From contig NC_013757.1 in the NCBI RefSeq assembly GCF_000025345.1, positions 868,001 through 932,000 of the forward strand: a DNA stretch of 64,000 nucleotides, written 5' to 3'. The position numbers were made by a program, and so were the translations under genes. Every line of letters begins with the position of its first letter. Position 1 is the stretch's first letter. Under the pieces are notes generated by a model, which saw nothing but the letters and a program-made list of their open reading frames with translations, did not search any database and was not told the origin of the DNA. This document shows, in pieces, positions 36,164 through 51,573 of the stretch. This DNA comes from Geodermatophilus obscurus DSM 43160 (GTDB lineage: Bacteria > Actinomycetota > Actinomycetes > Mycobacteriales > Geodermatophilaceae).

Positions 36164-37528
36164 GTGGTGACCACCGAGAAGGCACCCACCCTCCCGCCGG
36201 AATCCGCCCCGCTCGCACCGCGGCGAGGACCGATCCGGTGGATCGTCGCCACGTCCCTGGGCGTCGGCCTGGTCGCCGCGCTCGTCCTCGTGCTGGTGGT
36301 CTTCGCCGGGGCGCGCGAGCACGTCATCACCGGGTCGGCGCTGCTGGGCTTCGCACTTGGCTGGGCGGTGCTGGCGGTGCTGTCGATCCGGCTGACCACC
36401 CAGCCGCAGCGCTGGGCGTTCGTCCCGGCCGCCGGGATGGCCGGCACCGGGCTGGGGCTGCTGGTCCTCGCCCCGGGCGACGGTGGGCTGACCGCCGCCG
36501 GCTGGGTGTGGCCGGCGGTCCTCCTCGCACTCGCCGTCTGGATGGGCGCCCGCATCCGCCGTGACCTGGCCGCGGGCTGCGGCCGCCGGCTGCTCTACCC
36601 GGTCGTGGTGCTCATGGCCGTGGCAGCCGTGGGCGGCATGGCCGGGACCGTCGCGGTCGCCGGCCACCGCAGCCCCGTCGCGCCCGGGCAGTCCTACGAC
36701 GTGGGCGGTTACCGGATGCACCTGGACTGCACCGGCTCCGGCAGTCCCACCGTCGTGCTGCAGGGCGGGCTCGGTTCCATGTCGTCGTCCGGGGGGCGCG
36801 TCGCGCCGGCCGTCAGCCGGACCACCCGGGTGTGCGCCTACGACCGCGCCGGGCAGGGCTGGAGCGACGACTCGCCGCACGCGCCGGATGGCCTGCAGGC
36901 CGCCGCCGATCTGCACACCCTGCTCGGCCGGGCCGGCGAGGACGGGCCGTACGTGCTCGTCGGGCACTCGACCGGCGGCAGCTACGCGATGACCTACGCC
37001 GCCCGCCATCCCCAGCAGGTCGCCGGGGTGGTCCTGCTGGACGGTGCCGACCCCTACCAGGTCACCGCCGCCTCCACCGTGGCCGACGCGAACGCCCCTG
37101 CCGAGCTCGCGCTGCTGCCCAGCCTCGCTCGACTCGGCATCGGGCACCTCGTCCCGGCCTCCGTGTGGTCCAGCCTGCCCGAGCCGGCAGCCGGACAGGT
37201 CCAGGCGTTCGCGGCCAGTCCCCGCAGCTGGCGGAACGTCCGTGACGAGTTCGCCGCCATGCCTGCGCTGTTCGGCCAAGCTCAGGCGCTCACCACCCTC
37301 GGGAGTACGCCGCTAATCGTCCTCACCGCCGCAGGGCACGACGCGGACCCGCGGTGGTCCGCCGCGCAGGAGCGGATGGCCGCGCTGTCCACGAACAGCA
37401 GCCACCGCCACGCGGACGCCACGCACAACGCCCTGCTGGACGAGGAGCGCGGAGCCCAGGCGTCCGGGCGGGCCATCGAAGACGTCGTCGAGGCGGTGCG
37501 CACCGGCACACCGCTCGAGCCGGCCTGA
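36164..37528 (+). CDS. Membrane-anchored alpha/beta hydrolase
   Basis: A 454-residue protein. Residues 1-165 hold about five membrane helices, and the rest is an alpha/beta hydrolase. The oxyanion strand VVLQGGLGSMSSS, CAYDRAGQGWSDD, the nucleophile elbow VGHSTGGSYAM (Ser near residue 268) and the probable catalytic His in HADATHNALLDEE are visible. A hydrolase fused to a helical membrane domain suggests action on a lipid or peptide at the cell surface. It lies just left of the mobile element. Start GTG at 36164 or 36167. Confidence 0.82.
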   Translation: MVTTEKAPTLPPESAPLAPRRGPIRWIVATSLGVGLVAALVLVLVVFAGAREHVITGSALLGFALGWAVLAVLSIRLTTQPQRWAFVPAAGMAGTGLGLLVLAPGDGGLTAAGWVWPAVLLALAVWMGARIRRDLAAGCGRRLLYPVVVLMAVAAVGGMAGTVAVAGHRSPVAPGQSYDVGGYRMHLDCTGSGSPTVVLQGGLGSMSSSGGRVAPAVSRTTRVCAYDRAGQGWSDDSPHAPDGLQAAADLHTLLGRAGEDGPYVLVGHSTGGSYAMTYAARHPQQVAGVVLLDGADPYQVTAASTVADANAPAELALLPSLARLGIGHLVPASVWSSLPEPAAGQVQAFAASPRSWRNVRDEFAAMPALFGQAQALTTLGSTPLIVLTAAGHDADPRWSAAQERMAALSTNSSHRHADATHNALLDEERGAQASGRAIEDVVEAVRTGTPLEPA

Positions 37529-37584: not shown

Positions 37585-37634
37585 GGTGCCCCCGGCAGGA
37601 TTCGAACCTGCGACACACGGTTTAGGAAACCGAT
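37585..37634. repeat. attL: displaced 3' end of tRNA-Arg
   Basis: A 50-bp sequence identical to 51499-51548. It contains the complement of the T-arm (GGATTCGAACC) and the anticodon arm of tRNA-Arg, but then diverges, so it is not a working tRNA. It is the left attachment site of the element. Confidence 0.9.
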
Positions 37635-37736
37635 CTAGGCATGGTCTTGACCTGGGCTTCGGTCGCTCATTGCGGCTTTGACCTGCGGTGTTGTGCCGAG
37701 CTGATGAGTGCTGTCGACGGCCCTTGACGGACATTT

Positions 37737-37755
37737 TGCTGACCGAGTGCTGACC
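37737..37755. other. Possible integrase arm-type sites, left end
   Basis: TGCTGACC occurs twice (37737-37744 and 37748-37755), 11 bp apart, about 100 bp inside attL. The same octamer pair with 11-bp spacing is present near the right end (51413-51431). The symmetric placement suggests arm-type binding sites for the tyrosine integrase. Confidence 0.45.
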
Positions 37756-37865
37756 AGATGTCCGGCAGGCCCGAGTAGCCGTGCGTGGGACCTCTCCGGC
37801 TCTGGCGCCCCGCGCCGATGCTGGAGGTGCCGCCTCCCACCCGGCGGCAGTGTTCCGCCTGTCTC

Positions 37866-37970
37866 GGTCGCCGGAAGGGCGCTTCGCGTCCCTGCGGGAT
37901 GGGCCTCCGGCCCACCCTTCCCCCGCCCTGCGACAGCCAGAGGAGCGCCGGTTGTGGGGAAGCAGACAGG
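37866..37970. repeat. About 105-bp direct repeat, left copy
   Basis: This copy is about 90% identical to 40276-40379. Both begin GGTCGCCGGAAGGGCGC and end GACAGG and include a GGGATGGGCC / GGCCCACCC hairpin. The two copies flank the MFS transporter gene in the same orientation. The region from attL to the MFS gene (37,635-38,647) shows no credible gene. It also has GTCAATC-type repeats at 38,111-38,137 with about 10-bp spacing. Confidence 0.8.
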
Positions 37971-38647
37971 AGTGGGGACGCGCCTAGTAGTGCTTCGTTG
38001 AATTGGCGCGCGGGTGTGGCTGGTGATGCGTTGTCCCAGGACGTGCGGGTGGGCGCGTTGACCAGCGTGAAATCGTGAACTCCCGTTCTGACCTGCAAGT
38101 ATATATCTCAGTCAATCAGAGTCAATCGAGCTTAATCGAACGATCATGTGCCCTGATTGTGCCCAAGGGCCGGGGGGGGCTCCGCGAGGATGCAGCGGGT
38201 CCACACGGCCGACGTCAAAATGGTGAAGGCCGTCGTGCGCGCCCGCACGGCGTCGCAGGAGCACTGCTGGCGGCGCTCGAAGGCCACGGCTGGTCGGCCG
38301 CGCCGGCCCGGTCCGCCGCCGGCGAGGTCGAGCGCCGTTGGCACGGTACGGCCGGAGCCTCACGCGCACTCCCGCCGCGGACACCGGATCGAGACCTCCG
38401 CCTGGCACAGTCGGCGTGCGCCGCGAGGCGGTCGGGGGCCTGTGGACACGAAGCGGAAGCGGGTGGCTCAGCGTCGTCGGCGCCCGGACCTCGGTGAACA
38501 GCCGGAGCCGCCGCGGCTGATCACCACCCTTCACGTACCGCCCGGAGGCCAAGTCGGCCGAGGACACCGACGAGGAGCGCGGTCGGCGCTGACGCCGACA
38601 CCGAGGTTGGGGAACACCACCATTCGTCCGCGGGTTGATCGAGCATC

Positions 38648-40024
38648 GTGGGCCCTGACACTGACGCCGGCCGCGTCGCCGTGCTCGTCGGTCTGCTGTT
38701 CGGACTTGCCGGCATGGGCAGCGCCGCCGTCGCCGTCACGATGCCCGAGATCGCAGCTGACCTGGACTTGACCACCGGTGGCGTTTCGTGGGTGCTCACC
38801 CTCTACGCCCTGATGCTCGCGGTGGCGACGGCGGTCTACGGGCGCGTGGCCGACCTCGCTGGCATCCGCCTGCCATTTCTCGTAGGTGTTGGGCTCATGA
38901 CCGCCGGCGCCGTGCTCGGAGGTCTCGCGCCGACGTACGAGGTCCTGCTCGGAGCGCGGGTGCTGCAGGGCTTGGGCGCCTCCGCCGTCCCGGTGCTCGG
39001 CATGGCCATCGTCACCGCCAAGTACGACGGACGGGTTCGCGCCCTCGCCCTCGGCCGTGTCGCCGGAATGGCGGCTGCGGTCGGTGCACTCGGCCCGCTG
39101 GCCGGCGGCCTCGTTGCGGACCTCCTGGACTGGCGCGCCGTCGTTGTCCTCCCCGCGTTGGGACTGCTCGTCGTCCCTGCGCTGTGGCGTGCGGTCCCGA
39201 CGAGGGGGACCGGCGCCCGGCTCGACGTGCTCGGCGCGATCCTGGTGGCTGGCACCGCGGCGGGGCTCGTGCTGCTCCTGCAGTCCCCGTCCTCCGGTGT
39301 CGTCGTCGCCATAGCGGGCGTGGTTCTCCTGGGGCTCGGTGTCCCCGCTGTGGCGGCCCGCGTCCGCCGCCGGCCCGAGGGATTCCTCCCGCACACAGTC
39401 ATTCGCGAGCCGGTCGTCGTCCGCAGTGCCCTGGCGGCCTCCGCGGTTCCGGCGGCGTGGTTTGCCTTGCTGATCGCCGTGCCGGCGGTCCTCGCACTGC
39501 GGGGATGGTCGCCGCTCGAGGTCGGCCTTGCCCTCGTGCCCAGCGCCTTCACCGGTCTCCTGGGGCCGCGGCTGGCGGGGCCGATGCTCGCCCGCCTCGG
39601 ACCCAACCGGTCGCTCGCGGTGGCCGGGGTCACGGCGGGAGCCGCTCTCGCCCTGGCCGCCCTTGGCGCCGCTGCGGGGTCCGCCACGGTCCTGGTCTGC
39701 GCAGTCGTCCTCGTGACCTTCGCCTTCGGTCTCGGCCAGCCGGCGCTGATGGCCGCGGTCAGCGGAGCGGTACCGGTCGACGTCCGTGGGGTCGCGCTGG
39801 GCATCGCCATGCTCGTCTTCCTCGTCGGTGGGGGTATCGGGTCCGCGATCGTCGGAGGATTCGGCGAGGTGTTCGGGCTGGACCGGAGCCTGCTCCTCCT
39901 CGCGGTCTTCCCCCTTGCCGGCACCCTCGGGCTTGTGGGGTCGATCCGCGCCGAGCGCTCGGCACGATCGGCCCGCGGTCCGGACGGGCAGGACCCTGAC
40001 GTGCGGCTCGGAGACGGCCGCTAG
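38648..40024 (+). CDS. MFS transporter (DHA2-like), element cargo
   Basis: A 458-residue major facilitator. It starts VLVGLLFGLAGMGSAAVAVTMPEIAADL with a helix-1 proline/aspartate region typical of multidrug transporters, then SWVLTLYALMLAVATAVYGRVADLAGIR (motif A region) and ARVLQGLGASAVPVLGMAIV (motif B). It has 12-14 helices, resembling the EmrB/QacA or TetL-like group. A hydrophilic tail of about 25 residues ends it. The GTG at 38648 is the best start. It is flanked by direct repeats, which suggests it moved in as a module. It is probably an export pump of unknown substrate. Confidence 0.82.
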   Translation: MGPDTDAGRVAVLVGLLFGLAGMGSAAVAVTMPEIAADLDLTTGGVSWVLTLYALMLAVATAVYGRVADLAGIRLPFLVGVGLMTAGAVLGGLAPTYEVLLGARVLQGLGASAVPVLGMAIVTAKYDGRVRALALGRVAGMAAAVGALGPLAGGLVADLLDWRAVVVLPALGLLVVPALWRAVPTRGTGARLDVLGAILVAGTAAGLVLLLQSPSSGVVVAIAGVVLLGLGVPAVAARVRRRPEGFLPHTVIREPVVVRSALAASAVPAAWFALLIAVPAVLALRGWSPLEVGLALVPSAFTGLLGPRLAGPMLARLGPNRSLAVAGVTAGAALALAALGAAAGSATVLVCAVVLVTFAFGLGQPALMAAVSGAVPVDVRGVALGIAMLVFLVGGGIGSAIVGGFGEVFGLDRSLLLLAVFPLAGTLGLVGSIRAERSARSARGPDGQDPDVRLGDGR

Positions 40025-40161
40025 CTACTGGGGACGGTCGGGCCGACCGGCGGACGCACGGAACTGCCCCCAGTTGCACTGACTCTGCTGGACTCGCCGG
40101 GGCGGCGCTGGGCCTTGCCCCTTGAGCGTTGTGGGCTGACGACGGCCAAGGTTGGCTGAGT

Positions 40162-40191
40162 TGCGGACTTCCTGCGGACTAACTGCGGACT
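40162..40191. other. Three TGCGGACT direct repeats with 11-bp period
   Basis: TGCGGACT occurs at 40162, 40173 and 40184, exactly 11 bp apart. It resembles the TGCTGACC pairs at the element ends and sits at a similar distance before a 105-bp repeat copy. It could be a relic of another element end or protein-binding iterons. The 470-bp gap 40025-40494 has no credible gene. Confidence 0.5.
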
Positions 40192-40275
40192 GGGACAGCG
40201 CGTTCCCTGGCCCGTGTGAACCTCCTCGGGTGGCGGCACGCCACTCCCAGCCGGCCGAGGGTGCCGGCTGCAGCG

Positions 40276-40379
40276 GGTCGCCGGAAGGGCGCTGCGCGTC
40301 CCTGCGGGATGGGCCTACGGCCCACCCTTCCCCCGCCCCGCGACAGCCGGAGGGGCGCCGGTTGTGGGAAGCGGACAGG
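40276..40379. repeat. About 105-bp direct repeat, right copy
   Basis: Second copy of the sequence at 37866-37970, with a few substitutions and a 1-bp gap, in direct orientation on the other side of the MFS gene. Recombination between the copies would remove the transporter. Confidence 0.8.
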
Positions 40380-40494
40380 CGTGCGGACCCGCCGAGTCGT
40401 CAAGACCCGGGACGGAACCACCGACGCCGCCTCGCGTGCAGTTGGCCTTGAAGGTGACGAGGGGAAGCAGAGGCGGCCTGGGCTAGCGCGTCGA

Positions 40495-40983
40495 TCAGAC
40501 GAGTCCCTGTCGCGCCATTTCGTCACCAATCATATCCGCGATCTTCGCAGCGGCTGGCACCCAATCATCATCAAGAAAGCCCTCCAGATCCGCTTGCTGG
40601 ACGAAGACAACGAAGGGACCCCAAGTAGCAGGAAGATTACTGGCGACCCCGCCCGACGCCGCCAACACGTTCACGGCGTCTGTGACGTCCATTCCACGAT
40701 CTCCGAGCGGCATAAAGCCGTTCTTGACGAATGGCCCACGGAACTCGATTCGTGTGAGCTTGGCGGTGTATGGTGTAGGCCCCCCGGGGTTAGATTCGAT
40801 TGTATAGAAGACGCGATCATCCTTGCCCGTGTGCTGGTGCCTGAAGTATGACGTTTCGCCCTCCTTCAGCCTGTTCTTATTCCTCACCGAGCGAATGTAG
40901 AAGTCGTGTCCATCAATTGCACTCCCGCTGGGAGGGAACTCCTCCTTGACGGCCAACCTGATCGCGTCTTCGAGTTCCGTCAT
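40495..40983 (-). CDS. Unknown protein, tandem paralog 1
   Basis: A 162-residue soluble protein of no family I recognise. It starts MTELEDAIRLAV and ends IGDEMARQGLV. Its paralog at 41482-41970 has the same length. Residues about 20-61 are identical in both (SGSAIDGHDFYIRSVRNKNR and on to DDRVFY), then similarity drops. It is rich in charged and aromatic residues and has no signal peptide or membrane helix. The ATG at 40983 is supported by a shared GGAGTTGCTGA upstream of both copies. The frame stays open farther upstream (to 41157), but that part is not shared. AT-richer than its neighbours. Confidence 0.75.
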   Translation of the reverse strand: MTELEDAIRLAVKEEFPPSGSAIDGHDFYIRSVRNKNRLKEGETSYFRHQHTGKDDRVFYTIESNPGGPTPYTAKLTRIEFRGPFVKNGFMPLGDRGMDVTDAVNVLAASGGVASNLPATWGPFVVFVQQADLEGFLDDDWVPAAAKIADMIGDEMARQGLV

Positions 40984-41481
40984 ATCAGCAACTCCATTAT
41001 TGAGCGGCCGCTGGCCTAGCGGCGCGGATTGCACAATCATGGGCGCAGGTTGGAGGGGCGTCGTCACCATTGCGTCACGAATAGTCCAACCCCGCTCCGG
41101 CCTCCTGCGACTGCGGCAACGACCCGGACTGGCAGGACGCGCCGGTGTAGGCAGCAAGACAGTGGGGGTCGTATCGCCACCTGCACAAGTCCACTAGGCG
41201 CCGTCAATGCTCTCAGGCGCCGTTCACCCCTGCCGCTGAACTAAAAATCCCTCAGCGGGCCTCTCAGGGGCAAACAGTGCACATGAGTGGCTGATCATCG
41301 ACACGGCGGCTGCACTTGGCAACGGTGGAGAATCGCCCGGAACCCCCTAACGATCACAGGGCGAAGCGAATGATGCGGGCACCCCTGGGGAGGCGACCAG
41401 CGTTCCCGACCTCCTTCGCTCGCCGACCGCGATATACGAGGCCCTTCCTCGATGCGGGACCTGCCTGGACTAGCGCCTGGT
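40984..41481. other. Spacer between the two paralogs
   Basis: About 500 bp without a credible gene. It should hold the promoter of paralog 1. Near its right end CCTGGACTAGCGC resembles CCTGGGCTAGCGC just downstream of paralog 1, so the duplicated unit includes 3' flanking sequence. I see no clear hairpin terminator. Confidence 0.5.
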
Positions 41482-41970
41482 TCAGAGTGCCCCTTGTCGT
41501 ACCATTTCAATCCCAATCAAGTCCGCGACCTTTGCAGCTGCTGGCACCCAATCACCATCGAGAAAGCCTTGTATGTCCAGTTCTCTAACGGCCAGAGCGA
41601 ACTCGAACCATTCACTGGGGAGCGCGCTGGTGAGCCCGCCCGCTTCCCGCAATACGTTCACCGCATCTGTCACGTTGATCCCACGGTCTCCGATATCCCT
41701 GAAGCCGTTCTTGACGAACGGCCCACGGAACTGAATCCGCGTGAGCTTGGCAGTGTATCGGAAGGGTGACCCGGGGTCAGGTTGGATCGAATAGAAGACG
41801 CGATCATCCTTGCCCGTGTGCTGGTGCCTGAAGTATGACGTTTCACCCTCCTTCAGCCTGTTCTTATTCCTCACCGAGCGAATGTAGAAGTCGTGCCCGT
41901 CAATTGCGCTTCCGCTCTCGGGGAACTCGCCTCGGACGGCAAGGCCAATCGCGTCTTTGAGCGATGTCAT
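41482..41970 (-). CDS. Unknown protein, tandem paralog 2
   Basis: A 162-residue protein, sister of the 40495-40983 product. It starts MTSLKDAIGLAV and ends IGIEMVRQGAL. The nucleotide block 41791-41916 differs from 40804-40929 at only five positions, all silent, while N- and C-terminal parts differ at many residues. Conserved features outside the block are YTAKLTRI, FRGPFVKNGF, VTDAVNVL and DWVPAAAK. AAGGAG precedes the ATG at 41970. It is divergent, with a 216-bp gap, from the large SARP regulator. Function unknown. Confidence 0.75.
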   Translation of the reverse strand: MTSLKDAIGLAVRGEFPESGSAIDGHDFYIRSVRNKNRLKEGETSYFRHQHTGKDDRVFYSIQPDPGSPFRYTAKLTRIQFRGPFVKNGFRDIGDRGINVTDAVNVLREAGGLTSALPSEWFEFALAVRELDIQGFLDGDWVPAAAKVADLIGIEMVRQGAL

Positions 41971-42186
41971 GTCAGCAACTCCTTCGTTGGGGTGAAAGGG
42001 GTGAGCGCCTCAAGGTTGGCGGTGCGGGCTTGAAGAGCGATGGATGGCCACTGGAAAGTCTTGAAAGGACGCTGGAAGACGGAGACCCTTAGCGGTGGCG
42101 CTACGTGCCCGGCAGCAGACGCGCCGTGGCCAATGGCCGGGTGACCGGATCGGGCCGGCCAGCTGCGCGGAGCGGAGGGATCCGGT

Positions 42187-45100
42187 ATGGACCTTCGGAT
42201 ACTCGGCCCGCTCGAGGTTCGGGGCACAGGCGGGCCGCTTGTCCTTGGGGGTGTCCAGCAGCGCGGGGTGCTGGCCATGCTGGCGCTCCACCTCAACGAG
42301 GTGGTCACCACCGACTTCCTTATCGACGGTTTGTGGGGGGAGGAGGCGCCGGCGAGCGCTACCAACATCGTGCAGGGCTATGTCTCGCGGCTACGGAAGG
42401 CTCTGCAGGCGGAGAACGTGCCGGATCGAGTGGGTGCCGCGGTCTTGCTGCGCCGGGGTCCCGGCTATCTGCTCGAACTTGATCCCGAGCAGGTCGACCT
42501 GTATCGCTTCCAGCGGCTACTCCGCGAGGGCGTGCGGGCTCTGCGCCCGGCGCCGGTCCGGGCTGCAAGCACGCTGCGCGAGGCGCTGGGCTTGTGGCGT
42601 GGGCAGCCGCTGGCGGAGTTCGCCGACGTGCCCTTCGCCCGAGTCGAGATACCGCGGTTGGAGCAGCAGCGGCTCGGTGCCCTCGAGGCACGCCTGAAGG
42701 CGGATCTTGCACTCGGGCGACACGCCGAGGTCATCGGCGAGCTGAAGGCCCTCGTCGCTCGGCATCCCCTGCATGAGGGCCTACACCAGCTGCTCATGCT
42801 CAGCCTGTACCGCTCGGGCCGGCAGGCCGAGGCACTGGAGGCCTACCGGCAGGCGCGCGAGACCCTGGCCGAGGAGCTGGGCATCGACCCCGGTCGGGCG
42901 CTGCAGGAGCTCGAGGCCGCCATCCTCACCCACGACCCGGACCTGGACTGGACCCCGTCGCCCGACGGCCCCACTTCTCAGGGGTCAGCCGACACGCGAG
43001 GCTCTCTCGCCGTCCCGCGGCCGCAGGCGTGGAACGTGCCGGCCCGCAATCCGCACTTCACCGGCCGGGACGACCTGCTCACCGAGCTGCGCCGGCGGCT
43101 GCACGGGGAGGAACCGACGCTGGTGGTGCAGGCCTTGTACGGCCTGGGTGGGGTGGGCAAGACCCAGCTGGCGATCGAGTACGCCCACCGGTTCGCCGCC
43201 GACTACGACCTGGTGTGGTGGATCGACGCCGAACAGCCGGTGCTCATCGGCGACCAGCTGGCTGGCCTGGCCGCCCGGCTGGACTTGCCGGCCGGGCGCA
43301 CGGTGGCCGACACCGTCGACCGACTGCTGGCCGAGCTGCGCGGGCGGGACCGGTGGCTGCTGGTCTTCGACAACGCCAAACACCCTCAGGACATCGCCGA
43401 CTATCGGCCCTGTGGAGCCGGGCACGTGCTGATCACCTCCCGCTCCCCGGGCTGGGGAGCACTCGGCGGGCGGCTGGAGGTCGACGTGCTGGCCCGGGCG
43501 GAGACGATCGCCTTGCTGCGCGCCCGAATCCCGAGCATGAGCGAGGAGCTGGCCGACAAGCTCGCCGCCGAGCTCGGGGATCTGCCGCTGGCCGCCGCGC
43601 AGGCCGCCGGCTATCTGGAGCAGACCGACCTGCCGGCGGCGGACTATCTGCGCCGCTTCCGCACCCGCCGAGCCGACCTGCTCACCCGGGGCGACGTGGT
43701 GGGCTATCACGGCCGGGTCGACACCGCCTGGGCGCTGTCCCTGGACCGGCTGCGCGGCGAGGAACCGGCCGCGGTTCAGCTGCTGGAGCTGGCCGCCTTC
43801 CTCGCTCCCGAACCCATTCCGCTGTCCCTGGTCGGCGGGCACGCCGAGCTGCTGGAGGAGCCGCTGCGCGGCATCGCCGCCGACCCCGACGCCCTCGCCG
43901 ACACCGTCGGCTCTCTCGTCGGATACTCCCTGGCCCGCCGCCACCCCGAGGGCTTCCAGGTCCACCGGCTGGTGCAGGCGGTCATCCGCCACCAGCTTCC
44001 CTCCGACCGGCAGCAGGACACCGCCCAGCGGGTGGTAGCGCTGCTGGCCGCCGCATCCCCCGGCGACCCGGACGATCCGGTCAGCTGGGCCGCCTACGCC
44101 CGGCTTGCGCCGCACGTGCTCGCCACCGCCCCGCTGGGGGACTCCTCCTCCGCCAGCCGGCAGCTGGTCCTGGACACCATCCGCTACCTGCAGGCCCACG
44201 GGGACAGCTCCGGCAGCCGGGCCGTCTGCACACCACTGCTCGACCGCTGGCGCGAGGTCCTCGGCCCCAACCATCCCGACACCCTGACCGCCGCCAACAG
44301 CCTCACCCTTGCCCTCTTCGCAGTGGGCGAGGGCAAGTCAGCCCACGCGCTGAGTGAGGACACTCTGCAGCGCTGCCGCCGGGTGCTCGGCCCCGACCAC
44401 GCCACCACTCTGTTGGCGGCGACCGCGCTGACCGTTGCCCTGAACCACAGGGGGGCGGCCGAGCCGGCCCGCGCCCTGGGCCAGGACACCCTGCAGCGCT
44501 GCCGCCGGGTGCTCGGCCCCGACCACATCACCACCCTGTGGGCGGCGGCCGCCCTCGCCGTCGCCCGGGCCGTGCTGGGGGAGGTGGAGCCGGCCCGCTC
44601 CCTGGGCCAGGACACCCTGCAGCGCTGCCGCCGGGTGCTCGGCCCGGACCACGTGATCACCCTCTTGGCGGCGGGCGCCCTCGCCGTCGCCCTGGTCGTG
44701 CTGGGGGAGGTGGAGCCGGCCCGCTCCCTGGGCCAGGACACCCTGCAGCGCTGCCGCCGGGTGCTCGGCCCGGACCACGTGATCACCCTGTGGGCGGCGG
44801 GCGCCCTGACCCACGCCCTCGTTCAGCTGGGCGAGGCCGAGCCGGCCCGCACCCTGGGCCAGGACATCCTGCAGCGCCGGGTGTTCGGCCCACACCACGT
44901 GATCACCCTCTTGGCGGCGGGCGCCCTGACCCACGCCCTCGTTCAGCTGGGCGAGGCCGAGCCGGCCCGCACCCTGGGCCAGGACACCCTGCAGCGCTGC
45001 CGCCGGGTGCTCGGCCCGGACCACGTAATCACCCTGTGGGCGGCGGGCGCCCTGACCCTTGCCCTGATTCAGCTGGGCGAGGTCGAGCCGGCCCGCACCC

Positions 45101-45189
45101 TGGGCCAGGACACCCTGCAGCGCTGCCGCCGGGTGCTCGGCTCCGACCACCCGATCACGCTGTACCTGACAGCCGCCAACATCACCTGA
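42187..45189 (+). CDS. AfsR-like SARP/NB-ARC/TPR regulator
   Basis: A 1000-residue multidomain protein. Residues 1-95 form an OmpR-like winged helix ([38 protein letters not shown]), 98-250 a bacterial transcriptional activation domain, and about 290-560 an NB-ARC/STAND ATPase with P-loop LGGVGKTQL (residues about 319-327) and Walker [10 protein letters not shown]. Residues about 690-1000 hold 42-residue TPR-type repeats. Architecture and size match Streptomyces AfsR. The ATG at 42187 has GGAGGG 7 nt upstream. Such proteins act as ATP-driven switches that activate promoters. It is the only regulator in the element apart from the excisionase-like gene. Confidence 0.88.
44350..45150 (+). repeat. 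Tandem 126-bp repeats coding TPR units
   Basis: The segment CTGGGCCAGGACACCCTGCA recurs at 44476, 44602, 44728, 44854 (one base different, CATCC), 44974 and 45100. The spacing is 126 bp except for one unit that is 6 bp shorter (120). Seven units, counting a first divergent one at about 44356, code for [14 protein letters not shown] followed by a variable helix. Near-identity at DNA level indicates recent expansion. Confidence 0.9.
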
Positions 45190-46063
45190 TGCGGACCGTC
45201 AGCAGCGGCCCCTCATAATTGGTGATTACCACCGTTTTACTCATACCGCCGCGCATTCACGACGCTGGTAAGCACAGCGCCACCCCGCTCATGCCGCCTG
45301 CACTCAATTTGATTCCTTATTCCGTGGTGATGCATCCGCATAGCAGCAATAACAGCCAATTGTAGGCCGTCCTGGATGTCTAATTACGTATCTTTTGGAG
45401 TGTTGTGTGGGACTGCCCCCGGGTCGCCCGGGACTTCGGAATCTTGGAGTCCTGCCTCCGCCGGCGCGGTCACCACTCGCCGGCGGGGCCAGGCCGTCCT
45501 CGCGCTCGGCGATCTCAGCCAGCACTCCAGCACACCATGGACACCACGGTTTGCTCGCGGCAGCTCCCTCTCCTCGATGGTCGGCGTGCCGGCTGATCCC
45601 AGGCTGGCGAGTGTCTGATCCATCCAGGCGAGCTTGGCATCGAGCGCGAGCTCGCCATGGGCGCAGATCGCGGCGACGAAGGGTCCTAGCGGCTCCTGAG
45701 TCGCGTGCGTCCGCGCGATCTCGGCTCGCCTCGCCTCGATCGAGTGCCGCCGCGTGGTGAGGGGCGGCCGCGGAGGCCGCTGCGTGACCGCGAACCGGTG
45801 CCATCGCGCAGTCCAACGCCATCGTCATGAAAAGCCAAGCAGTGGGCATTCTGCATGCAGCCAGTAATGGCCCATGAGCGGCCAGAGAGCTGACACCTAA
45901 GACGACTTGATGCCCACAACTTCCAACTCTTACCGCTCACACTCAACCCTTTACCGAAGAACGGCACGCATGCTACCAATAGAGGTAGTCCGGGCCCCGC
46001 TTCGCGGGGCCCACTGCCGTTTCTGGGGGTGGCGTGTTGGTCATTGTTGGACGGCGTTGACAA
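45190..46063. other. Large spacer before the relaxase gene
   Basis: About 870 bp. The first 180 bp are AT-richer with no clear ORF. On the minus strand at about 45,560-45,800 one frame reads SIEARRAEIARTHATQEPLG, then LALDAKLAWMDQTLASLG. This could be a decayed regulator C-terminus (PadR-like), but it has no credible start or full domain. The end of the gap holds a strong hairpin and presumably the relaxase promoter or oriT. Confidence 0.35.
45992..46012. other. 9-bp stem hairpin upstream of relaxase (candidate oriT feature)
   Basis: GGGCCCCGC-TTC-GCGGGGCCC forms a perfect 9-bp stem with a 3-nt loop, 52 bp before the relaxase start. MobF oriT sites usually lie next to the relaxase gene and include such hairpins. 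A terminator is equally possible. No nic site can be identified from sequence alone. Confidence 0.4.
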
Positions 46064-49000
46064 ATGCACGGCGGCATGAAGATCTACGCTGGCGCGCCAG
46101 CGGCGGCACGCCAATACGTGGAGTTCGACCGCGGCCGGGTCGATGACTACTACCTGACCGAGGGCGCTGGAATCGCCCGCCGCTACGCGGCCGCCGGCGG
46201 GTGGGTGCAAGAGTTAGCACCGCTGGCCGGGGATGGCTACGAGGCGTGGGTGGCCGGCCTGGATCCCGACACCGGGATGGCCCGGGGGCGGCTGCGCACC
46301 GACGAGCGGGCGGTGCGGTTCGTCGAGGTGGTGGTCAACGGCCCGAAGTCGTGGTCGCTGGCCGCCGCCCTGCACCCGGACATCGCCGCCGCATACGACG
46401 CCGCCCAGGACCGCGCCGCCACCCAGATCATCGGTTGGCTGGCCCGGCACGCGACCACCCGAGTCGGGCCGCGCGGCGGGCAGGTGCAGGTGCCGGTCGA
46501 GCGCCTGGAGGCGGTGATGGTGCGGCACTACACCTCCCGAGCCGGAGATCCGCACCGACATCTGCACCTGCAGGTGGGCGCCCGGGTGTTCGCGGCCGGC
46601 CGCTGGCGGGGGCTACACACCGTGGGCGTACGCGACTTCCTCGGCGCGATTAACGGCATCGGCCACACCGCGGTGGCTACCGACCCGCAGTTCCGGGCCG
46701 CGCTGGCCGCACACGGCTACACCCCGGACGGCACTGGAGAAATACTGGAGATCGCCGAGTACGTGGGTGCGTTCAGTTCCCGGGCGGCGCAGATCGGCCG
46801 CAACCTGGACCGCTACGAGCGGGAGTGGACGGCCGCGCACCCCGGTGAGGTCCCGGGCCCGTCCCTGCGGCGCGCGTGGGATGCACGGGCGTGGGCCGAG
46901 GGCCGACCGGACAAGGTCACCCCGCAACCGGGCACCGACCTCACCGACCGGTGGGTGACCGAACTGGCCGCCCTGGATTACCGCGCCCCCGAGCGACCCG
47001 TCGCCCTGAGCCCCACGCCCATCGGCGGGCTGGACCGGGACGGGGCGGTCGAGCGTGTGCTGACCCGTCTCGCGGCCGCCCGCTCAGCATGGAACGCCGC
47101 CGATGTCCGCGGCGAGGTCGAGCAGCTGATCGCCGCCGAGGGCATCGTCGTCGACGCCTGCGCGCGGACCGAGTTGGCCGAGGACCTCACCGCCCGCGCA
47201 ATGGCGCGGTGTGTGTCGCTGCTGGAACAGGCGGGAGTTGCCGAACACATCCGGGCTTGGACCTCCCAGCCGGTGCTCGACGTCGAGGCCGACCTGACCG
47301 ACCGGCTGGCCGCTCGGAGCAGGACCGTCGCCGCTGACGTGGACGGGCCGACGCTGCCGGATGCCGTACGCGGACGGCTGGATGCGGGGCAGGCGGCGGC
47401 GGTCACCGCGCTGGCCGGCGACCAGCCCCTGGTTGTTGTCGAGGGCGCGGCCGGCGCGGGCAAGACCACCGCCCTGGCCGCCACCCGACAGCTGCTCGAG
47501 GCGGATGGGCGCCACCTGGTGGTTGTCACCCCGACGCTGAAGGCAGCCAAGGTCGCCGCTGCCGAGGTCGGTACCGCCACGGCCTCGGCGGCGTGGCTGG
47601 CCTTTCAGCACGGCTGGCGCTGGAATGACGACGGTGCCTGGACCCGGCTGACCTCCGGCCAGACCGACCCGGTCACCGGAGTGCCCTACGCCGGCCCGCA
47701 GGAGACGGCGCAGCTAACCGCGGGGGACCTGCTCGTCGTCGACGAGGCCGGGATGCTCGACCAGGACACCGCCCGGGCGCTGCTGACCGTCGCCGACGAG
47801 GCCGGAGCCCGGTTGGCGCTGCTGGGTGACCGCAACCAGCTCGCCGCGGTAGGCCGTGGCGGCGTGCTCGATCTCGCCGCCGGGCAGGTCGACCCGACAG
47901 CCCACCTGGTGCTCGACGGGGTCCACCGCTTCGTCCGCACCGACCAGACCGGACGGACGGCGCCGGACGTGGAATACGCCGAGTTGTCCTTGGCCATGCG
48001 CACCGGCGAGGACCCGGGCGCGGTCTTCAACGCGCTCATGGCCCGCGGCCACATCCGGCTGCACGCCGATTCCGCTGCGCTGCAGGCGGCGCTGGCCGCG
48101 ATGACCGCCGCACATCACCGTGAGGGCGAGCGGGTGGCCGTGGTGGTCGACACCCGCGAGCAGGCCGCCGAGCTCGGCGCCGCCATCCGGGACCGGCTGG
48201 TCGCCGACGGCCGCGTCGACGATGCTCAGGTCGCGGTCACCGACGCCGGGCAGCGCATCGGGGCCGGGGACCGGATCGCGACCCGCCGAAACGATCGCGA
48301 CCTCGGAGTAGCCAACCGCGACGTCTGGACCGTCACCGCGATCGGCCACGGCGGGGATCTGGCCGTCATCCCGGCCGATGTCACCCCGACCGACGCCGTC
48401 CCGTCCGGTGTCACCCCAGCGGGGGAGCGGGTGCTGCCCGCTGGCTATGTCACCTCGCACGTGGAGCTCGCCTACGCCAGTACCGCGCACGGCGCGCAGG
48501 GCGACACCGTCGCTGCGGCGCACCTGGTGGTCGGCGAGCACACTGGCGCGGCGGCCGCCTATGTCGGGATGACCCGCGGCCGCACCGCCAACACCGCCCA
48601 CCTGATCACCACCGACCCAGCCGACGCACGCGAGCAGTGGATCGCCGTGTTCAGCTGCGACCGGACTGACCTCGGCCCCGGCCACGCCGCGCAGCTCGCC
48701 GCCGCCGAGGCGGCCCGCTACGCCGCACCTCGCCCGCTCGGGCAGCTGCTGGCCGACCTGCACGCGGCCTGGACGGTCGAGCGGCGCTGTCTCGACCGGC
48801 TGGCCGTCTTGGAGCCGTGGTGCGACGTGCTCCGCCAGGCCGTGGCGCTGGAGGCGCCCCGCGCCGGCGAGTTGGCCCGGCTGGAGGACCGGTCCCGGCA
48901 CGTAGCTCACGCCGCTCAGCGAGCCACGCAGCGGGTGCAGGCCGCCGACACTCTCCTCGCCGAGCAGGCCGACCGCATCCGCGACGGCCTGCTAGCCGCC

Positions 49001-49690
49001 TGGGACGCCGAGCGCGGCACCGCCCGCGCTGCAGCCCGGCTGGTACTGGATGGGCCCGGCTGGTGGGGTCTCAAGCGCGCGCCCGTCGCCCGGGCCGGTG
49101 AGCAGCTGGCCGGTTGGGCCGACCGGTGGCGCCCGCATCTGCCCGGACTGCCCACCGACGTGAAGCAGCTCGCGCGGGTGGCTGACCGGGGCGACGACCG
49201 GCCCGCGCTGTGGCGGTCATTTGACGCCGTCGCCCGCCGGGCCACCGAACAGCAGCATCCAGGGCACGCTGGGCTGCATATCGCCGCCAAGGCCGCCCGG
49301 CAAGCCGATGAACAGGCCCAAGCTGCCTTGGCCGAGGCGCAGCGCCACCGCGCTGAGCGGCTCGACCCGCTCGGGCCGCTGGCCTGGGCACCCGACCCGG
49401 CCGGGCGGCTGACTGCCCTCGAGCGCTCAGTTGCCACCACCTGGCACGAGCTGGCTGCCGCCCGGGCCCGCATCGCCGACCTGCAGGCCGACCCCGCGTT
49501 CGCAGGCCAGCCGCCCGACCGGCGCACCGCCGCCCGCGACGCCTGGCGCGACCGCTACGACACCGAGCAGCACCAGCGCCGAGCCGCCACGCCGGGATCG
49601 ACCGGCTACCCCACACCTGTCCCGCGGCCCGGGTGCGAGCGCCACGGGCCACGGGCCGCGCGGGATGTCACCCCGAGCCTCGGTTGGTGA
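46064..49690 (+). CDS. MobF family conjugative relaxase-helicase
   Basis: A 1208-residue TrwC/TraI-type protein. The relaxase domain (residues 1-about 270) has candidate catalytic tyrosines in DDYYLTEG (residues 29-30) and the metal-binding triad HRHLH (His164, His166, His168). A RecD-like helicase follows with motif I EGAAGAGKTTAL (near residue 459), motif II LLVVDEAGMLD and motif VI YVGMTRGRTANTAHL. The C-terminal about 250 residues are helical and charged. It would nick at oriT and unwind the transferred strand. ATG at 46064 or 46076. No coupling protein is nearby, so transfer needs a helper. Confidence 0.9.
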   Translation: MHGGMKIYAGAPAAARQYVEFDRGRVDDYYLTEGAGIARRYAAAGGWVQELAPLAGDGYEAWVAGLDPDTGMARGRLRTDERAVRFVEVVVNGPKSWSLAAALHPDIAAAYDAAQDRAATQIIGWLARHATTRVGPRGGQVQVPVERLEAVMVRHYTSRAGDPHRHLHLQVGARVFAAGRWRGLHTVGVRDFLGAINGIGHTAVATDPQFRAALAAHGYTPDGTGEILEIAEYVGAFSSRAAQIGRNLDRYEREWTAAHPGEVPGPSLRRAWDARAWAEGRPDKVTPQPGTDLTDRWVTELAALDYRAPERPVALSPTPIGGLDRDGAVERVLTRLAAARSAWNAADVRGEVEQLIAAEGIVVDACARTELAEDLTARAMARCVSLLEQAGVAEHIRAWTSQPVLDVEADLTDRLAARSRTVAADVDGPTLPDAVRGRLDAGQAAAVTALAGDQPLVVVEGAAGAGKTTALAATRQLLEADGRHLVVVTPTLKAAKVAAAEVGTATASAAWLAFQHGWRWNDDGAWTRLTSGQTDPVTGVPYAGPQETAQLTAGDLLVVDEAGMLDQDTARALLTVADEAGARLALLGDRNQLAAVGRGGVLDLAAGQVDPTAHLVLDGVHRFVRTDQTGRTAPDVEYAELSLAMRTGEDPGAVFNALMARGHIRLHADSAALQAALAAMTAAHHREGERVAVVVDTREQAAELGAAIRDRLVADGRVDDAQVAVTDAGQRIGAGDRIATRRNDRDLGVANRDVWTVTAIGHGGDLAVIPADVTPTDAVPSGVTPAGERVLPAGYVTSHVELAYASTAHGAQGDTVAAAHLVVGEHTGAAAAYVGMTRGRTANTAHLITTDPADAREQWIAVFSCDRTDLGPGHAAQLAAAEAARYAAPRPLGQLLADLHAAWTVERRCLDRLAVLEPWCDVLRQAVALEAPRAGELARLEDRSRHVAHAAQRATQRVQAADTLLAEQADRIRDGLLAAWDAERGTARAAARLVLDGPGWWGLKRAPVARAGEQLAGWADRWRPHLPGLPTDVKQLARVADRGDDRPALWRSFDAVARRATEQQHPGHAGLHIAAKAARQADEQAQAALAEAQRHRAERLDPLGPLAWAPDPAGRLTALERSVATTWHELAAARARIADLQADPAFAGQPPDRRTAARDAWRDRYDTEQHQRRAATPGSTGYPTPVPRPGCERHGPRAARDVTPSLGW

Positions 49691-49767
49691 GCGGGGTCGC
49701 TTCCCGGCGTGCTGCCGGGCGGGGCGGGCGGGCACTGCAGGAGAACTGAGGAACAACTGAAGGATCC

Positions 49768-49801
49768 GCCGACCTCCGGCAGGTGCCTGCCGGAGGTCGG
49801 C
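49768..49801. terminator. Strong palindromic hairpin after relaxase gene
   Basis: GCCGACCTCCGGCAGG pairs perfectly with CCTGCCGGAGGTCGGC around a central TG (34 nt). It lies 78 bp after the relaxase stop, in a 325-bp gap with no credible gene. It is probably a terminator or a protein-binding palindrome. Confidence 0.6.
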
Positions 49802-50015
49802 CTCCCGCCGGACGCCACCACCGAGCACCGGCCCCGACGGCGGGCCGTCACATCGGCGGCTCTCACCTGCCCAGTCACCGGCCACAGAGACGCACCGGAG
49901 GAAAACAGGAGGTCGACCGGGAGAAGTTGGCTGTGAGCTGTCACCAATGGCCGGAAAACGACGCCTTCTACAGGTGGACAGCCCGCCAGGACCCGCCCAG
50001 CTCTCGGAGACAGCC

Positions 50016-50369
50016 ATGCCCGACCAAACCCCCGGCCCCGATCACACCGCCGAACTGCTCACCATCGCCGAAGCCGCCCTGCTGCTGCGAGCTCCGGTCG
50101 CCACGTTGCGGTACTGGCGCCACCTGGGCACCGGCCCGCACAGCTTCCGGCTCGGCCGCCGCGTCCTCTACCGCCGCGACGACCTGCGCGCCTGGATCGA
50201 TTCACGGCGCGATCAAGGCATGGCTGAGCGGGACCCGGCTCCAGAGGCGCAGATCGACGTCGGAGTCGGACCGCGGACTCTCGTGCCAGGTCCTCGACCG
50301 CGCGAGGCTGGGCGCGCTTCGACGCGGACCGAGGCGTCCTACCGGCGTGCGACCAAACCAGAGGGGTGA
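50016..50369 (+). CDS. Excisionase-like helix-turn-helix protein
   Basis: A 117-residue protein. Residues about 10-65 form a MerR/excisionase-type HTH: LLTIAEAALLLRAPVATLRYWRHL, then the wing RLGRRVLYRRDDLRAWIDSRR. Small proteins of this type serve as recombination directionality factors next to actinobacterial integrases. The C-terminal about 50 residues are polar and low-complexity. It ends 3 bp before the integrase start and is surely co-transcribed. GGAG lies 8 nt before the ATG. It probably promotes excision and may repress int. Confidence 0.8.
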   Translation: MPDQTPGPDHTAELLTIAEAALLLRAPVATLRYWRHLGTGPHSFRLGRRVLYRRDDLRAWIDSRRDQGMAERDPAPEAQIDVGVGPRTLVPGPRPREAGRASTRTEASYRRATKPEG

Positions 50370-50372
50370 GCG

Positions 50373-51485
50373 ATGGCATACAAGCGTGGGGACAAGTGGG
50401 TCGGCTTCTATCGCGACGTCGCCGGCAAGCAGCACACGAACGGGAACTTCCACCGCAAGCGGGATGCCGACCTGTGGGAGCAGGAGCAGAAGGCGGCCAT
50501 CAGGAACGACACCTGGGTCGACCCGAGTCGGTCGAAGATGACGGTAGGCCAGTGGTCCGAGACCTGGATCGCCGGCCGGGTCCACCTCAAGCCCAAGACC
50601 CTGTCGTCCTACCGGTCACTGTTGGCCACCCGTGTCCTCCCGACCTGGAACACGGTCCCGCTCACCAGGATCAGGCACAGCGACGTCGTCGCCTGGGTGG
50701 CCGCGATGCGCGCGGAACTGTCGGCGTCCAGAACCCGGCAGGCCTATCACCTGCTGTCCTCGATGCTGGACGACGCGGTAAGGGACAACCGGCTGGCGCG
50801 GAACCCGGCCACCGGGGTCGGCCTACCCCGCCTGCCGAAGTCCGACCGCCGCTACCTCACCCACCAGCAGCTCGCCGACCTGGCCGACGGCTGCGGCCCG
50901 CACCGCCTGATGGTCCTGGTGGCCGGTTACACCGGTCTCCGGTGGGGAGAGCTGACCGGCCTGCGTGCGCGCCGCGTGGAGTCGCTCAGGGGGCGCATCG
51001 ACGTCGTTGAGGCGGTCACCGAAGTTGACGGCGGGATGGTCTTCGGTACGCCGAAGACCCATCAGCACCGGTCGGTCGTGGTGCCCCGCTTCATCCGCGA
51101 GGACCTCGGCCGCCAGCTCGCCGGCAAAGCGCCGGCCGACCTGGTCTTCGCCTCCCGGGCCGGCACGCCGCTGCGGGTCCAGAACTTCCGACGCGACTGG
51201 TTCGACCGGGCGGCCCATGCCGTCGGCCTCTCGGGCCTCACCCCGCACGAGCTCCGGCACACCGCCGCATCCCTCGCCATCGCCTCCGGCGCGTCGGTGA
51301 AGGGGGTGCAGTCGATGCTGGGCCACGCCTCGGCGCAGATGACGCTGGACCGCTACGGCCACCTGTTCCCCGACGAGCTGGACGCGGTCGCCGACCGCTT
51401 GGACGCCGCTCGTGCTGACCAGGTGCTGACCGAGCCCCGACCCGACGCCCCTGTGGCCCGCATCTGGCGCGCGACTAGCCGCTGA
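50373..51485 (+). CDS. int: Tyrosine-type site-specific integrase
   Basis: A 370-residue phage-type integrase. The N-terminal arm-binding domain (KRGDKWVGFYRDVAGKQ) is followed by a SAM-like core-binding domain (residues about 60-150) and the catalytic domain. Catalytic residues are Arg in YTGLRWGEL (near 190), Lys in GTPKTHQHR, HELRHTAASLA (near 291) and the Tyr nucleophile in TLDRYGHLF (near 327). It recombines within the 3' end of tRNA-Arg, which lies 12 bp after its stop. Its last codons contain two TGCTGACC octamers that may be arm sites. Confidence 0.95.
   Translation: MAYKRGDKWVGFYRDVAGKQHTNGNFHRKRDADLWEQEQKAAIRNDTWVDPSRSKMTVGQWSETWIAGRVHLKPKTLSSYRSLLATRVLPTWNTVPLTRIRHSDVVAWVAAMRAELSASRTRQAYHLLSSMLDDAVRDNRLARNPATGVGLPRLPKSDRRYLTHQQLADLADGCGPHRLMVLVAGYTGLRWGELTGLRARRVESLRGRIDVVEAVTEVDGGMVFGTPKTHQHRSVVVPRFIREDLGRQLAGKAPADLVFASRAGTPLRVQNFRRDWFDRAAHAVGLSGLTPHELRHTAASLAIASGASVKGVQSMLGHASAQMTLDRYGHLFPDELDAVADRLDAARADQVLTEPRPDAPVARIWRATSR
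51413..51431. other. Possible integrase arm-type sites, right end
   Basis: TGCTGACC at 51413-51420 and 51424-51431, 11 bp apart, with a third near-match CGCTGACC at 51480-51487. They mirror the pair at the left end of the element. They lie inside the integrase coding sequence, so coding constraint is an alternative explanation. Confidence 0.4.
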
Positions 51486-51497
51486 CCAGCACCTTTG

Positions 51498-51573
51498 TGG
51501 TGCCCCCGGCAGGATTCGAACCTGCGACACACGGTTTAGGAAACCGATGCTCTATCCCCTGAGCTACGGGGGC
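51498..51573 (-). tRNA. tRNA-Arg (anticodon CCT)
   Basis: A complete 76-nt cloverleaf on the minus strand including an encoded CCA: 5' acceptor GCCCCCG pairs with CGGGGGC, the D-arm has AGCTCAGGGGATAGAGC, the anticodon stem-loop CGGTTTCCTAAACCG has CCT at positions 34-36, and the T-arm is GCAGGTTCGAATCCTGC. Closing pair 27-43 would be U-U, a minor oddity. It decodes AGG. Its 3' 50 bp are the right attachment site of the mobile element. Confidence 0.93.
51499..51548. repeat. attR: core repeat within tRNA-Arg
   Basis: Identical over 50 bp to 37585-37634. The tRNA stays intact on this side, as expected when a tyrosine integrase inserts into a tRNA 3' end and the integrase gene sits beside the functional tRNA. 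Confidence 0.9.

Follow-up and report, generated by a model that had tools for sequence, protein, structure and literature searches.

A probable integrative mobilizable element in the tRNA-Arg(CCT) gene of Geodermatophilus obscurus, with cargo that ends at a predicted origin of transfer

What kind of element occupies the tRNA-Arg(CCT) gene of Geodermatophilus obscurus DSM 43160, and where do its parts join? The window considered here is a stretch of 64,000 nucleotides, positions 868,001-932,000 of the one-contig, 5.32-Mb genome (label G000), in which an original prediction made from the sequence alone had placed a 14-kb integrative mobilizable element (IME) in the 3' end of this tRNA gene. Our analysis indicates that the element is probably such an IME, likely mobilized by a helper, and that its cargo ends at a predicted origin of transfer (oriT). 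The parts that carry this interpretation are as follows, in coordinates of the window:

37585..37634, minus strand: left attachment (att) repeat, the displaced 3' part of tRNA-Arg(CCT), matching 51499-51548 at 50/50 positions
45962..46012, plus strand: predicted oriT core, with the motif CGGCACGCATGCTACC and hairpins CTACC/GGTAG (45973-45988) and GC-rich (about 45991-46012)
46064..49690, plus strand: MobF (TrwC-type) relaxase-helicase, 1208 amino acids (TrwC PF08751, 171.3 bits, cutoff 25; AAA_30, 130.9 bits)
49947..50369, plus strand: excisionase-like HTH_17 protein, 140 amino acids (HTH_17, 47.9 bits)
50373..51485, plus strand: tyrosine integrase, 370 amino acids (Phage_integrase, 79.7 bits)
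51499..51548, minus strand: right att repeat, inside tRNA-Arg(CCT)
51498..51573, minus strand: intact tRNA-Arg(CCT), the integration target (ARAGORN; 67 bits)

ARAGORN placed a single tRNA in the window, tRNA-Arg(CCT), and the two att copies stand 13,914 bp apart, start to start; their 50-bp identity is beyond chance. Scored as a tRNA, the left copy reached 27.7 bits, below the Rfam gathering score of 29, as expected of a displaced 3' part. Repeat comparison and ARAGORN therefore agree with the prediction of perfect 50-bp end repeats, one of them within an intact tRNA, and the 3' end of the gene was rightly named as the target; the right copy falls inside the gene. The relaxase, xis-like and int genes follow one another beside the tRNA in the arrangement foreseen, so that, as in an IME, the element has its own integrase and a pair of att repeats bounding it at one specific site. 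The relaxase exceeded the cutoff for MobF in NCBIfam (NF041492; 116.4 bits against 100), and its residues were assigned by rules that we take to hold for MOBF (N-terminal tyrosines, a three-histidine motif and a helicase Walker A): DDYY (DDYYLTEGAG) lies near residue 30, HxHxH (DPHRHLHLQ) near residue 170 and Walker A (GAAGAGKTT) at residue 461. With these three motifs and a TrwC profile above cutoff the protein belongs to MOBF, and the TrwC, AAA_30 and NF041492 matches bear out the relaxase-helicase that had been proposed. The HTH_17 protein scored 22 bits against TIGR01764 (excise), under the cutoff of 28.8.

From left to right, the element encodes a major facilitator superfamily (MFS) transporter, two paralogs on the opposite strand, a SARP-NB-ARC-TPR protein, the relaxase, the HTH_17 protein and the integrase. 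Family scans (Pfam, NCBIfam, PADLOC) covered these seven proteins, shorter open reading frames (ORFs) falling outside the scan. Among the seven we found no coupling protein, type IV secretion system (T4SS) or replication family, which agrees with the prediction that none would be recognizable. Thus the element has, within this scope, no coupling-protein or mating-pair genes, and it has both a MobF relaxase above cutoff and an oriT predicted from conservation and hairpins, again as in an IME.

The oriT was recognized by the motif CGGCACGNATGCTACC, located about 100 bp (90-102 bp) upstream of the relaxase start in 117 unique modules; these remained from 178 candidate loci after exclusion of 12 without a relaxase start or motif, 5 that were too short, and duplicates. 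A CTACC/GGTAG hairpin comes next and is perfect in 103 of the 117 modules; after it there is usually a second, longer and GC-rich hairpin whose stem is at least 8 in 82/117 (shuffled control, 0/117). The pattern CGGCACGNATGCTA occurred at 135 places in 55 of 112 genomes of the family, compared to one for the reversed control. Of the 42 motif places in the genus, 37 have a TrwC match no more than about 310 bp downstream, and the motif adjoins none of the large relaxases typical of integrative and conjugative elements (ICEs). It is also present, with a few substitutions, in the locus set collected by relaxase, and with 1-2 mismatches it lies 41-83 bp upstream of mobF in all three actinobacterial plasmids examined; the oriT region itself had no match among plasmid records. 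The nick site (nic) is predicted within about 5 bp of 45962 on the minus strand, placed by the arrangement in R388 and F, which we presume to apply. Motifs without TrwC in five genomes of the genus (L248, L249, L250, L251 and L252) may represent oriT-only elements or chance.

To the left of this motif, modules with nearly the same relaxase part company. Nine pairs, forming four groups, are at least 97% identical over the 300 bp right of the motif; four of these share cargo, and the other five, in three independent groups (the window, WIN, with L046; L255 with L256; L063 with L184, L206 and L210), are at chance identity (0.514 +- 0.045) on the left. At a threshold of at least 95%, 20 of 25 pairs were at chance on the left, four shared cargo, and one was partial. 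L063 and L210, for example, have 100% identity across the 300 bp on the right and 0.53 across the 30 on the left. When boundaries were set inside the relaxase at six positions, no such fall was seen in any of the 10-14 pairs at each, a control that is lenient because the gene is under constraint. WIN/L046 and L063/L210 share even the variable hairpin loop adjoining the motif. These alignments indicate that cargo ends at the predicted oriT, where near-identical relaxases adjoin unrelated DNA.

Since related genomes with an empty site would bear on the prediction, we compared the same locus in 25 other genomes of the genus; a search with the tRNA and its right-flank DNA had matches in 26/26 genomes. 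In the 8.8-11.0 kb examined, nine of the 25 loci (L135-L143) have the tRNA but neither another att copy nor an integrase match of at least 60 amino acids; five of these nine (L138, L139, L140, L142 and L143) have the left chromosomal flank at 1.1-4.0 kb from the tRNA. At other loci of the genus, att repeats stand at differing distances, some with integrases 54-94% identical. Varied distances and loci without a second att copy together indicate, at the level of sequence, that tRNA-Arg(CCT) is a site of repeated and variable occupancy; a precise empty site for the window's left edge was not among the stretches compared. The alpha/beta-hydrolase gene left of the element is common only to G016 and G009 among the stretches compared; lying at 36164-37528, between conserved chromosome and the left att, it may stem from an older insertion.

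The nearest relative, Geodermatophilus poikilotrophus (G016), has a 32-kb version at the same tRNA, whose left end matches that of the window at 98.4% to about 40373 and whose right end matches at 97.6% from 45942, while the middle differs. The MFS unit of the window is found again in another element, L051. Sequence common to the window, G016 and L051 runs to about 40334, inside the second of two copies of a 93-bp box; beyond this point G016 and L051 share another variant of the box. The two copies are:

37866..37958, plus strand: 93-bp left-end box, copy 1, 231 bp inside the left att (repeat comparison)
40276..40368, plus strand: 93-bp left-end box, copy 2, the left junction of the exchanged middle, inside which the sequence shared with G016 and L051 ends

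With its left junction in the second box and its right junction at oriT, the window's middle appears as a cassette between the two. The claim that the element is a single unit was thus upheld for both end modules and had to be qualified for the cargo, which recurs elsewhere (the MFS unit in L051) and is replaced by a different middle at the same tRNA. The comparisons describe one integrating unit with an exchangeable middle, i.e., a mosaic. A reduced element, with integrase, xis and only the C-terminal part of the relaxase, occupies the same tRNA in G024 (L121); the catalytic relaxase part is missing, and the sole motif copy of that genome lies elsewhere, beside a relaxase remnant.

Of the 14 elements with a clear left repeat, all but L099 (Marmoricola) have the 93-bp box inside the left att; among these 13 the distance is 202-336 bp in 11 and 455 and 1080 bp in two. 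Row G000c, oriented by a chance motif, was left out of this tabulation; its box, at 2105816, is on the same strand as its oriT. The box is present in 18/26 genomes of the genus, and G. obscurus has seven copies, of which five belong to four IMEs, all on the oriT strand, and two lie elsewhere. These two (1909088 and 1915912) have no oriT motif nearby and may mark a relaxase-less island. Being directional, the box marks the left end across elements that differ in integrase and tRNA target. Its structure was no more stable than that of shuffles (z -0.05 and -0.19); a consensus hairpin exists, from which no function follows.

How might such joints arise? In the mechanism we propose, Int and Xis would excise the element as a circle, and the relaxase would nick oriT within a few bases of 45962. 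The transferred strand would then leave with the cargo first and int last, through the coupling protein and T4SS of a helper, and the circle would re-enter the tRNA gene of the recipient. Since MobF relaxases can join two oriTs, as does TrwC of R388, an incoming, tandem or co-resident relative could be rejoined at the wrong oriT, so that new cargo would be joined at nic to the old relaxase-int module; recombination inside the 93-bp box would make the second junction of the window's cassette. That oriT doubles as a site of cargo exchange, with the MobF relaxase as recombinase and the box closing the exchange, in a cassette-swapping IME platform of the Geodermatophilaceae, is a proposal we put forward tentatively.

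By its gene content the element would depend on a helper, and the G. obscurus genome holds one possible source. The genome encodes, at 712-733 kb, an ATPase resembling VirB11/TadA, a member of the SCO6880 family, an M23 peptidase and (at 731-733 kb) a coupling protein of the TraG/VirD4 type. A TrwC relaxase of 1837 amino acids lies at 781-786 kb; the coupling protein and this larger MobF relaxase possibly act as the helper. The region as a whole (G000:C1:712776-786348; L162, L158-L161) may be an ICE, its TrwC protein lying 48 kb beyond the coupling-protein group. Across the genus, coupling proteins occur in 12/26 genomes and TrwC relaxases in 19/26.

Several points weigh against our interpretation. 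Excision, nicking and transfer were inferred from sequence, not observed. Most of the 117 modules were gathered by the motif itself, so that conservation at positions 0-13 is inflated, weak conservation extends about 18 bp left of the motif, and 5/42 motif places in the genus have no adjoining TrwC match. None of the loci compared was an exact empty site preserving the left edge seen in the window. The helper is uncertain, since the G. obscurus genome gave no match to VirB4 (profile PF12846) and six genomes (G003, G007, G012, G015, G016 and G024) have IME-type relaxases and no TraG-D_C match. Finally, L163 is 87-94% identical to L171/L229 for the first 700 bp or so of the relaxase and 99-100% beyond. 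This comparison was initially a candidate oriT junction and was dropped when windowed identity put the crossover inside the relaxase; ordinary homologous recombination thus operates in the family, and the short oriT core could be another place where it acts.

The main rival to an edge made by the relaxase is accordingly homologous recombination in the short oriT core and the 93-bp box, by which the cargo of an IME would change without relaxase action. It is favored by the crossover in L163, by several other pairs whose identity shifts along the gene, and by the left junction itself, which falls inside a repeated box as such recombination would have it. However, the shared sequence is far longer in the relaxase gene than in the oriT core, and still the switch falls at the motif in three independent groups with at least 97% identity; the hairpin loops shared by WIN/L046 and L063/L210 leave homologous recombination room of only a few tens of bases. 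We therefore consider this explanation rather unlikely, if one to be taken seriously. An edge that is merely the end of functional constraint, with cargo turned over by unrelated events and no mechanism behind the coincidence, would suffice for pairs at 70-90% identity, where constraint alone would yield an edge at the motif. At 97-100%, however, neutral sequence on the left should still match, and it was at chance level in five of the nine such pairs, which makes this explanation improbable.

A decayed ICE, or actinomycete ICE (AICE), stripped of its transfer genes could resemble a standing IME, and the reduced element of G024, with its C-terminal relaxase part, lends this some color. As set out in the part of the literature drawn on here, AICEs have an FtsK-type DNA pump and Rep, and T4SS-type ICEs have VirD4 and VirB4 (PMC3218068); the window element differs from both, the seven scanned proteins containing no Pfam match to an FtsK/TraB-type pump or Rep and neither VirD4 nor VirB4. 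Moreover, the plan of oriT, relaxase, xis and int without a recognized coupling protein recurs at many loci (43/70 with an integrase right of the relaxase), and the relaxases of ICE type found in the genus are larger and without the motif, so that decay is a highly improbable origin. A prophage or phage satellite, suggested by a tyrosine integrase at a tRNA 3' end, has next to no chance of being correct, since one of the seven scanned proteins is a relaxase and none matches a virion or packaging family of Pfam (PHROGs was not searched).

The window element belongs to a wider family. The relaxase scan yielded 73 relaxase loci, mostly in Geodermatophilus, Blastococcus and Modestobacter. At the nucleotide level these loci are homologous to the window in the relaxase and often in xis, but not in integrase and cargo; an integrase match lies right of the relaxase in 43 of the 70 loci that could be oriented. 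The 14 elements with a clear left repeat have repeats of 43-60 bp and target tRNA-Arg, -Ala, -Ser and -Met genes. The G. obscurus genome has four relaxase loci with the oriT motif and a fifth, larger relaxase without it, and the window element is one of four IMEs of its family there. The three others lie around 24112, 1505095 and 2098988, the first of them at tRNA-Ala(TGC) with a 43-bp repeat. Across 14.0 kb, elements L064 and L097 of two different Blastococcus species reach 99.99% identity, and L062 and L063 (Blastococcus/Modestobacter) reach 99.5% across 4.1 kb; such near-identity across species and genera points to recent transfer within the family.

The sections consulted of a 2017 review state that no canonical IME with a MobF relaxase was known and that the sole actinobacterial one, ATE-1, has MobV (PMC5704250). 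Like the canonical IMEs described there, the window element has an integrase, an excisionase, a relaxase and an oriT and no mating apparatus; unlike them, its family is MobF, is spread over many Geodermatophilaceae genomes and has a defined cargo edge at oriT. Later work described MobF IMEs of a traACD type in Mesorhizobium (PMC8627217), so that the combination of MobF and IME already has a precedent. In the portions of that paper used here, these resemble the window element in their MobF relaxase (TraA), in integrating at tRNA and other sites, and in a recombination directionality factor gene downstream of the relaxase; they differ in being alphaproteobacterial and in having accessory TraC and TraD, for which the window's seven proteins gave no family match, and those portions do not mention a cargo edge at oriT (PMC8627217). 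TrwC of R388 joins two oriTs, a target as short as 17 bp being sufficient according to the passages drawn on (PMC3264647). R388 is similar in its MobF relaxase-helicase and its arrangement of hairpin and nic (nic being predicted in the window), and different in that it is a conjugative plasmid equipped with a coupling protein and T4SS of its own, for which recombination was seen by laboratory assay and not as a natural cargo pattern (PMC3264647). For oriT mimics of the pWBG749 family in Staphylococcus, relaxase-mediated recombination was raised as a way to replace oriT regions; as far as the cited part goes, that case differs in concerning plasmids, in being a possibility put forward in discussion, and in that the part swapped is oriT itself, not cargo beside a fixed relaxase (PMC8136818).

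Three plasmids (pMspBDGP8A, pChr15 and one of Microbacterium paraoxydans) carry MobF relaxases with 38-42% identity to residues 1-874 of the window relaxase, residues 875-1208 being left uncovered by the match. They have a related motif upstream of mobF and, in two of three, a coupling-protein gene downstream; none has a neighboring integrase module. None of the open-access matches listed described MobF IMEs from Geodermatophilaceae or, for IMEs, cargo junctions located at oriT, and a natural IME family with cargo changing at oriT looks new. IMEs are thought to evolve through module exchange, and to our knowledge the way in which the joints between modules form has rarely been seen. Here, the joint falls at one predictable base position, the expected relaxase cut site, across a large family of soil actinobacteria, with up to 99.7% identity to one side of it and none to the other. 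If the relaxase makes it, conjugation itself would reshuffle cargo. The oriT motif provides a simple search string for such elements (135 places against 1 in the control), and one strain offers four IMEs together with a possible helper.

The cargo of the window element consists of four genes:

38648..40024, plus strand: MFS transporter, 458 amino acids (MFS_1, 149.7 bits)
40495..40986, minus strand: unclassified protein, 163 amino acids, paralog 1
41482..41970, minus strand: unclassified protein, 162 amino acids, paralog 2
42187..45189, plus strand: SARP (BTAD)-NB-ARC-TPR protein, 1000 amino acids (BTAD, TPR_10 and TPR_12 of Pfam)

A transporter, two unclassified paralogs and a SARP-NB-ARC-TPR regulator lie outside the standard resistance and phage sets, as had been noted in the prediction. 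The MFS transporter cannot be given a named family, its best NCBIfam match being 162 bits where the cutoff is 800. The SARP-NB-ARC-TPR protein scored 683 bits against NF040586 (FxSxx_TPR; cutoff 300) and is thereby a TPR protein of the FxSxx-COOH type; its gene contains nearly identical 126-bp TPR repeats. FxSxx-COOH systems have genes for a partner peptide and a radical-SAM protein beside the TPR protein, and no FxSxx-COOH partner family was found among the seven scanned proteins, small ORFs being outside the scan. The tandem paralogs are 73% identical to each other and had no match in Pfam, NCBIfam or PADLOC. The AlphaFold model of paralog 2 (pLDDT 81.5) gave no fold match in the PDB at E <= 0.001. 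This protein has 61 homologs, the named ones mostly "hypothetical protein"; they include proteins of Amycolatopsis and Nonomuraea, and the motifs ETSYFRH and GKDDRVF are strongly conserved.

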